Assembly: GCF_003096415.1 (NCBI RefSeq)
Contig: NZ_QEKH01000014.1
Span: forward strand, 62,001 to 126,000
Source: Victivallis vadensis
GTDB lineage: Bacteria; Verrucomicrobiota; Lentisphaeria; Victivallales; Victivallaceae
DNA: 64,000 bases
Reading direction: 5' to 3'
Shown: one piece after another, positions 13,648 to 56,995 of the stretch
Position numbering within the stretch: position 1 is the stretch's first letter
Layout: every line of letters begins with the position of its first letter
Notes under the pieces: model-generated
What the model was told of the DNA's origin: nothing
Databases searched by the model: none
Seen by the model: only the letters and a program-made list of their open reading frames with translations
Program-made: the position numbers and the translations under genes

Positions 13648-14769
13648 TTATCGTTCCACTTTCCAGTATTCGTTCTCATTGTTGATCAGCGCGGCGGTCG
13701 GCACGCTCTCCACATGGCCGTCCAGCCAGATCGCATTGCTCCGTCCGGAATGCCGCGCATACGGATACGCATCCGCCCATCCCCAACTGATCAACTGCCC
13801 CCAGCCCGTCTCCGCCGTGGAATCCGCCGCCATCAGCGTCCGCGACGGCTGCGAAATCCTCGAAAGTTTCTTCCCGAGCGCAGTATTGCTCGCCCCGGCA
13901 CCGAGATGCATGTAGTTGATCCCGTACATCACCCATGTATGGCGGTTGCTGTATTTCGCATAATATTCCTCGTTCGCAAGACTCCGCACCGGGCAGCGCG
14001 TGATCAGGCCCTTATCCGCCGAATGCGCGCTCCACGCCACGTTGGTATCGTTGTTGAAAAAATAAACCGTGGTAATCTGGATCAGCCAGTTCGGATAGAT
14101 GCCCGCCCCGCTCGGCGACGGGTAAAAGCCATCGTAGTCCCCATGATAGAAAGTCATCAGTCTGGAAATCTGGCTCTGGTTGCTCACGCAGCTGATCGCC
14201 CTCGCCTTGTCCCGCGCCTTGTTGAGAGCCGGCAGCAGCATCGCCGCCAGTATCGCTATGATCGCAATCACCACGAGCAGCTCAATCAGCGTAAAACTGC
14301 AGCGGGATAGTCTCCGACGGAGGATTTCGCTCCAGCCGGAGCGACCAGCGCTTTCGCCGCTGGACCACGACCGGCAAGGTGCCGGTGCCGGGTACGGGGC
14401 GGTGCAGTGCAAAGACGCGGTCGATCGACGGCGGAAAAAAGATCCGCAAAAACGTGAAGTTGTCTTCCCGCTTTTCTGCGGAAAAACAACTTCACGTTTT
14501 TGCTCCGACTTGCCGCCTGCAGAGCATTGGCAGAGGCGTGAGAGCTTGCGGGAAATGAGAGAGATGTTCGGATTGGTTGGTACGGGGAGAGATGCGGCGC
14601 TGGTCGCCGCTTTCTCTCCCCCGAACCCCTCTCTTTTACGCAGAGCGGAAACAAGGGACCGGAAGGTATGAAGTGACGGCACGCATGGAATAATACCGTT
14701 CAGAAATTTGATCAGTGTGTAATAAACCGCTGACCTGCCGCCGGAATGGAAACGCTTCTCTTCGAACAT
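13648..14769 (-). CDS. Type IV pseudopilin (H-X9-DG type) with a 158-residue repeat-encoded leader
   Basis: The C-terminal 215 residues are a normal pseudopilin: [20 protein letters not shown] from F159, a globular domain, and the [14 protein letters not shown] motif (H-X9-DG). The part before F159 is abnormal. The ATG at 14769 has a good CAGGAG site and lies 3 bases after the GntR stop codon, so it looks native. A normal leader would have 5-15 residues, yet here the frame runs through the 278-bp repeat at 14371-14648 for over 150 residues rich in Arg, Ser and Pro. The frame is never broken. Either a very long leader is made and cut off by prepilin peptidase, or the gene is damaged and restarts internally. 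The residue before the cleavage site is Ser, not Gly. Confidence 0.75.
14371..14648 (-). repeat. 278-bp repeat, copy 1, inside a pseudopilin leader
   Basis: This block matches 44250-44527 with no net length change. I count about ten substitutions in the first 146 positions, none in the central 58, and more in the last 74. Both copies have the same orientation relative to the pseudopilin frame and the same frame is open through both. One end carries CCGGCACCTTGCCGG. It sits between the start codon and the FTLIELL codons of the host gene. Confidence 0.9.
14446..14503. repeat. 58-nt palindrome in repeat copy 1
   Basis: Perfect 18-base arms (14446-14463 and 14486-14503) flank a partly paired centre, so a stem of about 26 bp with a short loop is possible. 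The 58 bases are identical, in gene orientation, to 44395-44452. Confidence 0.95.
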
Positions 14770-43030: not shown

Positions 43031-43807
43031 TCAATTGTCGTTGGTGACCCACTGCAGCTGGTTCTTATGGAAACCACCGCGCATCCGGTAACCGCCGGGC
43101 ATTTCATTTTCATACAGTTTGCCGTCAGTGGAGTAATATGGAATCGTGATTTTAGAACTGACCGCCTGTCCGACCGAGTAACTGGCGGCATGGCCATCGA
43201 GGAACGTGATATTGCCGCTGCGGCCATGGAAAGTGGTAAAGTTGCCGGTCCACTCGCTTTTATCGGTCCGGATCACGTTGTAGGCCCCACCGTTCGGTCC
43301 CCAGCCGGTGCTGAACGCTTCCGCCAGCAGAACCGTGCCGGAAGCCGCCTTTTTCACTTTTTTGAACGGCATCGGGTATCCCTCCGCCGCGACTCCCGAC
43401 TGGGGAATCGCATAGGTGTCTCCGGTTTGCGCATCGGGTTTCGCCACAAGGTAGGAAGGGCAGATCGCGATTTTGCGGGCCAGGGCATTGGCCGCGCTGC
43501 CGTTATCCCCCGGACTGAACCCGGGAACTCCGCCTTTGCTGTAAAGATAGAACCAGCTGTCGCTGACACCGGTGGCCGCGCGGGCGTCGCCGATCACCCC
43601 GCTGCTGTCGTTCATATACTGAATCATGATCAGGCCGAATTGCTTTTGCCTGCTGACGCAACTGATATTCCGCGCCCGCTCGCGGGCATTGTTCAGGGCG
43701 GGCAGCAGCATTGAGGCGAGAATCGCAATGATCGCGATCACCACGAGCAGCTCAATAAGGGTAAAGGTGTTGTGGAGAGGATTCCGGGGGCGATCAGAGT
43801 AACGCAT
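43031..43807 (-). CDS. Type IV pseudopilin (H-X9-DG type), operon leader gene
   Basis: A 258-residue pseudopilin with a 14-residue leader, then [20 protein letters not shown], a globular domain and [14 protein letters not shown] (H-X9-DG). Prepilin peptidase would cut before Phe, but the preceding residue is Thr, not Gly. The start at 43807 has AAAGGA upstream. It is the first gene of the seven-gene glycan operon. The promoter block in front (43851-43896) occurs again as a perfect inverted copy in front of a broken pseudopilin gene. Confidence 0.9.
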
Positions 43808-43850
43808 ACGATCAATTCCTTTCTGCATTCGGTTAGGATCGGGTTGCACT

Positions 43851-44090
43851 GATATTAATTATACCACAACTCGTGTCGAAAAAGAATACACAAAATGCAC
43901 TGTTTTGTATCTATTAGAGACTTTTTGCCGAAATTTCATCCGGGAAAGCAATTCCATCCTGAAAACCGCAGTTCATCGGGGGCCCGTAACTGCGAAACCT
44001 CCGGTTTCATGAAACGGAAAACATTAACAGATACAATATAATTGATTTTGTGTATTCTTTTTCGACACGAGTTGTGGTATAATTAATATC
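43851..44090. repeat. 46-bp perfect inverted repeat carrying divergent promoters
   Basis: Bases 43851-43896 and 44045-44090 are exact reverse complements over all 46 positions, and the likeness continues more weakly inward (TTGTATCT-TTA on both sides). Each arm includes a TATAAT box reading outward (43863-43858 minus, 44078-44083 plus). No good -35 box is present, so an activator may be needed. One arm faces the intact pseudopilin gene, the other the disrupted one. The central 148 bases hold no gene. Confidence 0.95.
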
Positions 44091-44142
44091 GGCGACCAAT
44101 CGGACGACCGTTTCATATAACAGAAGGAATTGAACGTATGGC

Positions 44143-44164
44143 GGCAAGGTGCCGCTGCCGGGTA
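44143..44164 (+). repeat. Single 22-bp GC-rich unit
   Basis: The same GGCAAGGTGCCGCTGCCGGG-type unit as at 28159-28202, placed immediately after the start codon of the disrupted pseudopilin gene. Confidence 0.85.
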
Positions 44165-44249
44165 ACGGGATGTGCGTCGTCACTGCATTCCTCCTACTTA
44201 TCCCGCTGGGGAGCTCTGCTCCCCCGGCCCCTCGTTGCCTCTTCCGCTC

Positions 44250-44527
44250 CCGCTCTGCGTAAAAGAGAGGGGTTCGGGGGAGAGAAAGCGGCGACTTGCG
44301 CCGCGTCTCTCCCCGTACCAACCGATCTGAACATCTCTCTCATTCCCCTCAAGCTCTCACGCCTTGGCCAATGCTCTGCAAGCGGCAAGTCGGAGCAAAA
44401 ACGTGAAGTTGTTTTTCCGCAGAAAAGCGGGAAGACAACTTCACGTTTTTGCGGATCTTCCTTCCCCGCCGGCCGACCGCGCCTCTGCCGATCGACCGTC
44501 CCGTACCCGGCACCGGCACCTTGCCGG
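44250..44527 (+). repeat. 278-bp repeat, copy 2, inside a pseudopilin leader
   Basis: Counterpart of 14371-14648, of exactly the same length and read in the same frame: both translate as [15 protein letters not shown], then [20 protein letters not shown] and later PYPAPAPCR. Substitutions but no net insertions or deletions separate them. Confidence 0.9.
44395..44452. repeat. 58-nt palindrome in repeat copy 2
   Basis: Arms 44395-44412 and 44435-44452 pair perfectly over 18 bases. All 58 bases equal those of copy 1 in gene orientation. Confidence 0.95.
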
Positions 44528-44744
44528 ACGCAGGGGGCGCGGGGGGCGGCGGACACGCCCCCCGCATCCCGCCGCACAAGGCCGATCACCGCAAGATTTA
44601 CGCTGCTTGAGCTGCTCGTGGTAGCTGAAAGCCGCGATCCGCATGGCCGGTTTCGGCCGCGGCGTCAAAGTGACCAACTGACGGAACATCCCGGTGGCGA
44701 CAGAAGCTGCCGGCTGGCTCCCGAAGTTTTATCAGCACTTCCCG

Positions 44745-45533
44745 TCAATGGCGCTCGTGCTTGCGGAATGCCGCCGGAGAAATCTTACGGTATTTCGTGA
44801 AGATGCGGGTGAAGTAGTAACGGTTGCAGAAACCGCACTTCTCCGCGATCGCGGAGATCGACTCGTCGCTCTGAAGCAGATACAAAGCGGCGAGTTCCAG
44901 TTTTTTCTCCAGAATAAAGTGCTGCGGAGTAATCGCGAAACTGCTGTAGAACTTCTTGATGAAGGGGCCGAGGCTCATATGCGCCATCGCCGCGAGCTTG
45001 CGATTGCTGTAATTCAGGGTCGGGTCGCGCTTGATCATCTGCCAGATCGCGAGCATCTGGGACTCGATATTGCGCAGGTCGAGCAGATACTCCTGCGGAA
45101 GCTGTTCGATGACCAGATTGACCGCGGCGCATCCGAGCAGTTTGAGCGCATCGCCCCCCTGCCGCGCCTGCAGCAGTTCGCTGAGTCGGTCGATCACGCC
45201 GTGCAGCGGCGGCGAACCGGCAAGTTCGGCGACGAAATCGGAACAGTCGGCGTACAGCCCGCCGATGGTGAAGTGCAGATAGAATTTCTCAATCAGCCCG
45301 CCGCGGGTGCTGGTGGTGAAAACGGTGTTCGGGGCGATCAGATAAATTTTCCCCGGCATCAGGTGGATGGTCCGGTCCTTGAAATGGATGTATCCGCAGG
45401 CGTTCACCGGCCGGTACAGCCGCCAATACGGCATCTGCAGGTCGATGAGGTTCCACTCCTGGATCACGTCATAACGCATATACAGAATTTCCACAGGGAA
45501 AGGGGCCAGCGAAAATGCCTCATGATTTGCCAT
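44745..45533 (-). CDS. AraC-family transcriptional regulator
   Basis: A 262-residue regulator. The N-terminal half is an AraC-type cupin (GYIHFKDRTIHLMPGKIYLI and FTTSTRGGLIEKFYLHF); the C-terminal half is the double helix-turn-helix (RKLAAMAHMSLGPFIKKFYS, then SISAIAEKCGFCNRYYFTRIF). GGGAGAA precedes the ATG. An AT-rich stretch with TATAAT-like boxes (about 45590-45610) is the likely promoter. It lies downstream of the GH39-like gene in the same direction but 178 bases away, so it is probably a separate unit controlling a nearby glycan operon. Confidence 0.9.
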   Translation of the reverse strand: MANHEAFSLAPFPVEILYMRYDVIQEWNLIDLQMPYWRLYRPVNACGYIHFKDRTIHLMPGKIYLIAPNTVFTTSTRGGLIEKFYLHFTIGGLYADCSDFVAELAGSPPLHGVIDRLSELLQARQGGDALKLLGCAAVNLVIEQLPQEYLLDLRNIESQMLAIWQMIKRDPTLNYSNRKLAAMAHMSLGPFIKKFYSSFAITPQHFILEKKLELAALYLLQSDESISAIAEKCGFCNRYYFTRIFTKYRKISPAAFRKHERH

Positions 45534-55602: not shown

Positions 55603-55979
55603 CGCATAATAGCAGGTATGTTAAGCGACAAGGCGGCTTTTCTGCATTGCAATTCATTAACATTCTTTAGGTTAGGCATTTTGTTCTCCGTTGTAAGTCG
55701 GCTTATGTTCACTTCTATGCCCGTTACAGGCAACAACTCAAAGGTAATGTTTGCTTGTCCGGCCCAATGCCGTCCGGTGTCAACCTTGGAGTGCGGAGCC
55801 CGAAGGGCTTGCCCCCGCTCCGCGGGAGTAAGCTTCAGCTCCGCTTTCAAATCTCGCGTGATCATGCAGTTACTCATAAGTTCAATTCGCCTTTCCATGT
55901 CATTACAGGTCACAAACCGGGTGCCTGTCGTTTGCGGATGGCTCCGGAGGGCCTTTTTCAAGGCCTGCCCGCCTGATCG

Positions 55980-56330
55980 CCCGTCCGGACCTCCCCGCTC
56001 GCCTCGGAACTCCCGTTGACTTGCGAAGCACTTCCATTCGCGGGCGCGGCTTCGCCGCTTACTTGTCCGCCTGCGGCGGCCAACCCTTCAACGTTCGCGG
56101 CGCTCACTACGCCAGGGTGGCTTCGCTCTCTACGTTCGGCTTCGTCACTATCGTTCCTCGTTATTTTGCTGCCGCAAAATAATTCCCTCACATCCGTTCG
56201 CGGCGCTGACCGCGCTTATTGTGCGCCGCATAAGTGGTTATGGAGACCAACCTTCGCTTGCCTGTGCCGTCCGCCGCGCGACCCCGAAGGGCGTAGAGCG
56301 CGCACCCGGCAGCGGCACCTTGCCGCCCGC
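55980..56330 (-). repeat. Long repeat family, copy 2
   Basis: Inverted counterpart of 28159-28600, inside the 750-bp element. Read on the minus strand it has the same landmarks in the same order. Differences cluster in hairpin loops and arms. Confidence 0.8.
56161..56182. repeat. Hairpin with covarying arms, copy 2
   Basis: TTATTTTGC and GCAAAATAA are 9-base perfect arms around TGCC. The aligned hairpin at 28398-28418 has TTACTTGCC and GGCAAGTAA, so several positions changed on both sides and pairing was kept. Confidence 0.85.
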
Positions 56331-56347
56331 TTAACATACCTGCTATT

Positions 56348-56995
56348 ATGCGTCGGAATTTCACTCTGATTGAGCTGCTCATTGTGATAGCGATGATCGC
56401 CATTCTTGCCGCCATGCTGCTTCCCGCCCTGAACAAAGCGCGGGACAGGGCCCATGCCATCCGTTGCGCCTCCAACCTCAAGCAGATCGGTAACGCACAC
56501 ATGATGTATTCCAATGACAATCAGGACTTCGCGGTTCCGGCCACCTGGGGACCGGGAGACGGCACCTCCTGGGACCGCAATCTCGGCACTTATTTCGGCA
56601 GGACCAAAGACACCATGAACTATTCCAGATTCCTCCAGTGCGGCTCCCATGTTCAAGTCAGCGCGCTCACGTCATTCAACAACCGTCGCAGCTACGCCCT
56701 CAACGCCAGTTTGCACTGCATTCACAACAACTGGGAGAATGGAAAACCGCAAAAATACACCATGGTCCGGAATCCGGGCTCCAAATTCGACACCAAGGAT
56801 TATCACCATCCCGAAAACGTCATCAACTCGGGAGCACAGGTCCTGATCGCAGTGACCTGGTACCGCGACAAAGACCTTCAATACGGTTACCCGCATTCCC
56901 ACGGCGGCAATCTTCTGTTCTGTGACGGTCACGTCGGAATACGGTACCGGACACCGGGAGAATTGAAGGAAGAAGAATACAAGCTCGACAAATAA
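56348..56995 (+). CDS. Type IV pseudopilin (H-X9-DG type), start codon supplied by the inverted repeat
   Basis: A 215-residue pseudopilin: MRRN, then [20 protein letters not shown], a globular domain and [17 protein letters not shown] (H-X9-DG). The ATG and the first base of codon 2 onward belong to the 25-bp inverted repeat, and there is no Shine-Dalgarno in front of it. The frame is right and gives a leader of normal length like that at 49126. The native start was probably at 55569. Residue -1 is Asn. It is followed after 28 bases by the large secreted protein. Confidence 0.85.

Follow-up and report, generated by a model that had tools for sequence, protein, structure and literature searches.

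Two inverted-repeat structures at the starts of pseudopilin genes are described here from the window, a 64,000-nt stretch of a Victivallis vadensis contig (Table 1). The first is a mirrored promoter between an intact pseudopilin gene and an orphan open reading frame on the opposite strand. The second is a segment of invertible type in front of a pseudopilin body that lacks a start of its own as assembled.

Table 1. Features of the mirrored promoter and of the invertible-type segment (window coordinates).
Feature	Position	Strand	Remarks
Intact pseudopilin, first gene of glycan-degradation operon	43031..43807	-	weak PF07963 match
RBS and start of left pseudopilin	43805..43821	-	AAGGAATTGATCGTATG, ATG at 43807-43805
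Mirror promoter, left arm	43851..43916	-	exact part 43851-43896; TATAAT at 43862-43857
Mirror promoter, middle segment	43917..44024		near-palindrome CCGGTTTCATGAAACGG, spotted by eye
Mirror promoter, right arm	44025..44090	+	exact part 44045-44090; TATAAT at 44078-44083
Mirrored RBS and start of dead right ORF	44124..44140	+	AAGGAATTGAACGTATG, ATG at 44138
Orphan ORF	44138..44800	+	start and leader element, followed by FTLLELLVV; pseudopilin body missing
In-frame repeat element, module 2 and core	44140..44622	+	ends in prepilin codons FTLLELLVV
Second inverted repeat, far arm	55603..55627	+	dif-like site CGCATAA-TAGCAG-GTATGTTAA
Start cassette	55603..55679	-	GGAG, ATG at 55679-55677, 26-residue leader; directed away from pseudopilin (OFF)
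Invertible-type interior	55628..56327		joined in reverse orientation in L155, L163, L167
Second inverted repeat, near arm	56328..56352	-	same dif-like site inverted; overlaps pseudopilin leader codons
Pseudopilin body	56348..56995	+	without start cassette in assembled orientation

The left pseudopilin scores slightly under the PF07963 cut-off and is followed in its operon by GH95, MFS, lyase-8 and further genes. No orthologue of the operon was found within the genus; its GH95 gene is matched in nine of 78 genomes (its own included, E 1e-60) and in no other genome of the genus, and a scan of the named genomes with the left pseudopilin as query was unproductive. On the right, an earlier note on this DNA had placed a broken pseudopilin at 44138. 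The reading frame is indeed dead, but most of it is not a pseudopilin: 44140-44622 is a dispersed repeat element, and FTLLELLVV is the only pseudopilin remnant. The whole frame has no Pfam match, and nothing else in the genome significantly matches the sequence 3' of 44622. The note's statement that the working pseudopilin is confined to one side holds. A gene for an AraC-type regulator (44745-45533) adjoins the locus.

The two 66-nt arms of the mirrored promoter are 91% complementary, and each holds a TATAAT box directed outward. Within them lies the exact inverted copy that had been claimed, identical at 46 of 46 positions across a 148-nt spacer; identity in the flank outside this block is 14/20. 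A 29-nt core of the block is matched twice in the 64-kb window (<=3 mismatches) and not at all in any of 100 dinucleotide shuffles. In the 5.2-Mb genome the block forms a single pair, and it is absent from the 77 other family genomes (78 searched including its own). With two copies only, a dispersed promoter repeat is ruled out, as is an origin from phages or plasmids, since neither viral contigs nor plasmids gave a match. The RBS/start block AAGGAATTGA(T/A)CGTATG is mirrored as well (16/17 bases) and has no match in 39 other pseudopilin loci at <=3 mismatches; this second mirror image is weaker evidence than that of the promoter because the RBS motif core, AAGGAATT, recurs at another pseudopilin (L033). 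Between promoter and RBS the left and right 5'UTRs are dissimilar, 683 of 2000 shuffles aligning equally well, and the identity is therefore concentrated in the promoter.

For comparison, 142 pseudopilin loci were scanned, comprising 39 with element A, 39 with element B, four in the window and a non-random sample of 60 that mostly followed HMM rank. Seven of the 142 have an exact inverted arm of at least 15 nt near the start. None of the 39 element-A loci and none of 58 among the 60 sampled loci has an inverted repeat near the start. The mirror-promoter pair is by far the longest of the seven and represents a type of its own.

On balance, the mirrored promoter is probably a static divergent pair that arose from an inverted duplication and whose right gene was lost. 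The duplication would have placed an inverted copy of the operon's segment from promoter to start beside a second pseudopilin start. Both promoters would be active, the left copy serving the operon and the right copy an orphan frame in which start codon and in-frame leader element precede FTLLELLVV, the stub of the lost pseudopilin. The exactness of the 46 bp may have been kept by recency, by conversion between the arms, or by selection on a common promoter/operator site. A recent duplication or gene conversion, as proposed in the earlier note, fits a perfect block next to diverged flanks and an unalignable 5'UTR, as does selection. The narrower explanation, that the 46 bases are a long common operator under purifying selection and were neither recently copied nor converted, we regard as possible though rather less probable. 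The identity does end sharply at the promoter and a regulator gene is adjacent, but 46 contiguous invariant bases, spacers included, are long for a promoter, and with the right gene dead the constraint on the right arm would be expected to be relaxed.

The further suggestion that 43851-44090 is an invertible switch is not supported by our data. In an invertible promoter the promoter lies between the repeats, whereas here both TATAAT boxes lie inside the arms, so that an inversion would turn the 148-nt middle only and both genes would keep promoter and start in either state. Also, a scan at <=3 mismatches found no dif-like site in the region, which rules out that the 46-bp block bears one. A site-specific switch of another class, in which the flipped middle swaps regulator sites relative to the promoters, is very doubtful. 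Exact arms at this spacing look like inverton repeats, the near-palindrome in the middle segment is a possible operator, and segments of invertible type exist at other pseudopilin starts of the same genome; against this, the arm type has no second copy in the genome and the right gene is dead.

The idea of a switch does hold elsewhere in the genome, where switch-like inverted segments stand at other pseudopilin starts. At 55603-56352, some 12 kb from the mirrored promoter, the arms match at 25 of 25 positions, and the segment is of invertible type, apparently assembled in the OFF orientation. Turning it in silico joins the leader to the pseudopilin body in frame, and in L155, L163 and L167 the interior of the window segment is found joined leader-first to a pseudopilin. 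A promoter scan of the segment returned weak matches only. The interior is partly a dispersed repeat (core ~307 bp), which also occurs away from pseudopilins (L172, L174, L177, L180-L193). A reading of repeat B as a randomly flipped element was dropped once the leader start had been found inside it.

The arms hold a dif-like site, CGCATAA-N6-TATGTTAA, and six family genomes have inverted pairs of such sites where pseudopilins start. Searches were conducted with the pattern CGCATAAT-N5-GTATGTTAA at <=2 mismatches, using the reversed pattern as control. Genomes G000, G068 and G069 yielded 28, 40 and 45 matches (controls 1, 1 and 0), the other six genomes of the genus 1 to 3 each (control matches 2 in G070). 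Across the 78 family genomes most have one or few matches, many of the form CGCATAATGTATGTTATGTTAA, a form taken to be the chromosomal dif; 15 to 50 matches occur in G000, G068, G069, G026 and G028, and a few inverted pairs in several others. In 38 of 38 pairs from three genomes the two sites have the same 6-nt centre (shuffled partners: mean 13.7, maximum 24), and the same holds for all 20 additional pairs, which come from seven genomes outside the genus (11 by computation, 9 by inspection). The total is 58/58 strong pairs; the decayed pairs L317 and L178 differ in their centres. All 76 sites have C..ATAAT and TATGT, most of these bases having been demanded by the search pattern itself, and positions 13, 19 and 21 are variable. 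Judged by sequence, the sites have the organisation of a XerC arm, a 6-bp centre and a XerD arm, which suggests Xer recombination. Several contigs start or end at or near dif-like sites (C8, C16, C26 and C45 of G000; C79, C82, C164, C195, C201 and C216 of G069), as would result from mixed orientations or from repeats among the reads.

Orientation was analyzed in 33 pairs with equal centres and an adjacent prepilin motif (14 from G068, 14 from G069, 5 from G000). In 29 of them the arm lies within the leader, and in one orientation a Shine-Dalgarno (SD)-like start stands 17 codons 5' of the motif (L249: 21; L175 and the window segment: 28). Eight of these 29 leader-type pairs are ON as assembled and 20 are OFF, i.e. 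joined only once turned; the last, L298, shows its leader once turned, but no SD by the rule used. Distant SD-like starts also present in the assembled state of three OFF loci (L287, L289, L307) were taken as chance. At L158, L164, L295 and L297 the RBS and start lie outside the segment, like in a plain invertible promoter, and L311 and L313-L316, several of them at contig ends, have no motif nearby. Outside the genus, six of six sampled loci of G028 are ON (two scored on a TTG start), and G026 has two ON and two OFF (one OFF scored on a GTG start). At L348 (G021) the invertible-type start cassette is flanked by a pseudopilin at each end, and the start codon would therefore go to one or the other. 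At nine loci of G023, G025, G034 and G043 (L339-L347) the dif-like inverted pair adjoins genes without a prepilin motif. Near-identical interiors are inverted in 20 locus pairs and run the same way in 26, with L303 matching L310 and L312 at 1.00. Both orientations are thus seen, in all cases between paralogous loci, and the opposite orientations show past inversion, as distinct from flipping in a living population.

As judged from these arrangements, it is quite likely that inverted dif-like pairs act as genome-wide start switches in Victivallis and its relatives. Recombination, probably by XerCD, would turn a cassette of RBS, start codon and the first codons of the leader toward or away from pseudopilins and thereby produce combinatorial on/off expression, the copy in the window being assembled OFF. 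With centres unlike that of the chromosomal dif, the switches would be insulated from it. An unlikely alternative takes the repeat at 55603-56352 and its relatives as the ends of a transposon-like element, given that interiors are common to different loci at 95-100% and that the interior is in part a dispersed repeat. Such ends do not account well for centres that vary between loci yet match within every strong pair, for the constant spacing of start codon and RBS from the gene, seen in just one orientation, or for identical interiors in opposite orientations. If the start-switch reading is correct, a little-studied gut phylum has converted a type of site for chromosome maintenance into a device for multi-locus phase variation of pilin-like proteins, and the crossover falls inside a coding leader. 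It would also offer a testable reason for the many pseudopilin genes kept in these genomes (here at least 150 scored PF07963 matches, among 308 candidates).

In the Moraxella pilin inversion and the R64 shufflon coding ends are exchanged, whereas in the Victivallis switches the start region would be turned. Common to all is that DNA inversion controls, or in Victivallis would control, pilin-type genes (Moraxella, as cited in PMC11868660; R64, PMC11852207). Invertible promoters and intragenic invertons are described from gut bacteria (Jiang 2019, Chanin 2024, as cited in PMC11868660 and PMC13343947); there, too, expression is set by the orientation of a segment between short inverted repeats, at several loci per genome. 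Compared with the gut invertons as outlined in these two papers, the Victivallis site is dif-like and located inside pseudopilin leader codons, and the segment bears an RBS and a start codon. For Akkermansia, PMC13343947 cites the motif CGGATT..AATCCG. A Xer-type inversion similar to that proposed here is described from Ureaplasma parvum, where XerC binds to the inverted repeats at phase-variable loci and brings about inversion; according to the same account the putative dif is bound by a separate protein, CodV, whereas in Victivallis the switch sites themselves resemble dif (PMC3599477). The dif of E. coli as given in PMC3025954, GGTGCGCATAATGTATATTATGTTAAAT, shares CGCATAA, a 6-bp centre and TTATGTTAA, and in most family genomes, too, there is just one site of this kind. 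The switch sites differ from it in forming inverted pairs with other centres, many with G as the first base of the second arm. Our literature search met no published account of these switches or of the leader element.

The leader element (element A) represents another route by which foreign DNA is tolerated in the leaders of pseudopilins, plausibly since the leader is removed. Some 40 copies per genome stand in frame before the prepilin motif of pseudopilins. Of 86 matching stretches in the genome, 39 loci were examined: the motif follows 3' of the element in all 39 and in the window copy, and at L052 only part of the element is in the frame of the gene. Not a single stop occurs in 38 aligned copies (L052 and L053 omitted), compared with 0.93 per copy expected from simulation; a cautious count of distinct stop changes gives 0 against ~5.5 expected (P 0.004). 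Divergence is even across codon positions (0.149, 0.171, 0.170) and dN/dS is ~0.77, so the frame is kept open and the protein is weakly constrained. The open frame in 38/38 copies rules out an intron, and a known RNA is ruled out by the lack of any Rfam match; the window copy has a strong predicted RNA fold (z -6.2). In phage records the element has no match. Searching the named genomes gave 44 loci: two uncultured Victivallis MAGs account for 43, and another Lentisphaeria bin for the remaining one. The element is in frame with the prepilin motif at 31 of these; nine loci are truncated by a contig end and four are broken.

In many copies FTLIELLV flanks the element on both sides, and upstream and downstream FTLIELLV copies of the same locus resemble each other slightly more than those of different loci (26 loci, permutation p 0.016). 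One orthologous locus free of the insert was found (G068 versus insert-bearing G000), with 23 of 24 bases repeated around the insert. Rickettsia palindromic elements are likewise small, mobile-like and in frame in protein-coding genes (PMC10969869). The Victivallis element resembles them in its in-frame insertion and open frame. It is larger (<=480 bp) and is tied to a single gene class and a single site, immediately 5' of the prepilin motif.

The window holds a second copy of the leader element at 14368-14648, inside the pseudopilin gene 13648-14769 (- strand). At L055/L086 a pseudopilin with leader element from the G005 bin, of another genus, is protein-identical to L042 of G000, by transfer or bin contamination. 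Nested in the leader element at L016, L017, L019, L020 and L025 is a 130-bp module, in tandem in some copies and bounded by the 19-bp direct repeat CCGCTCTGCGNAAAAGAGA.
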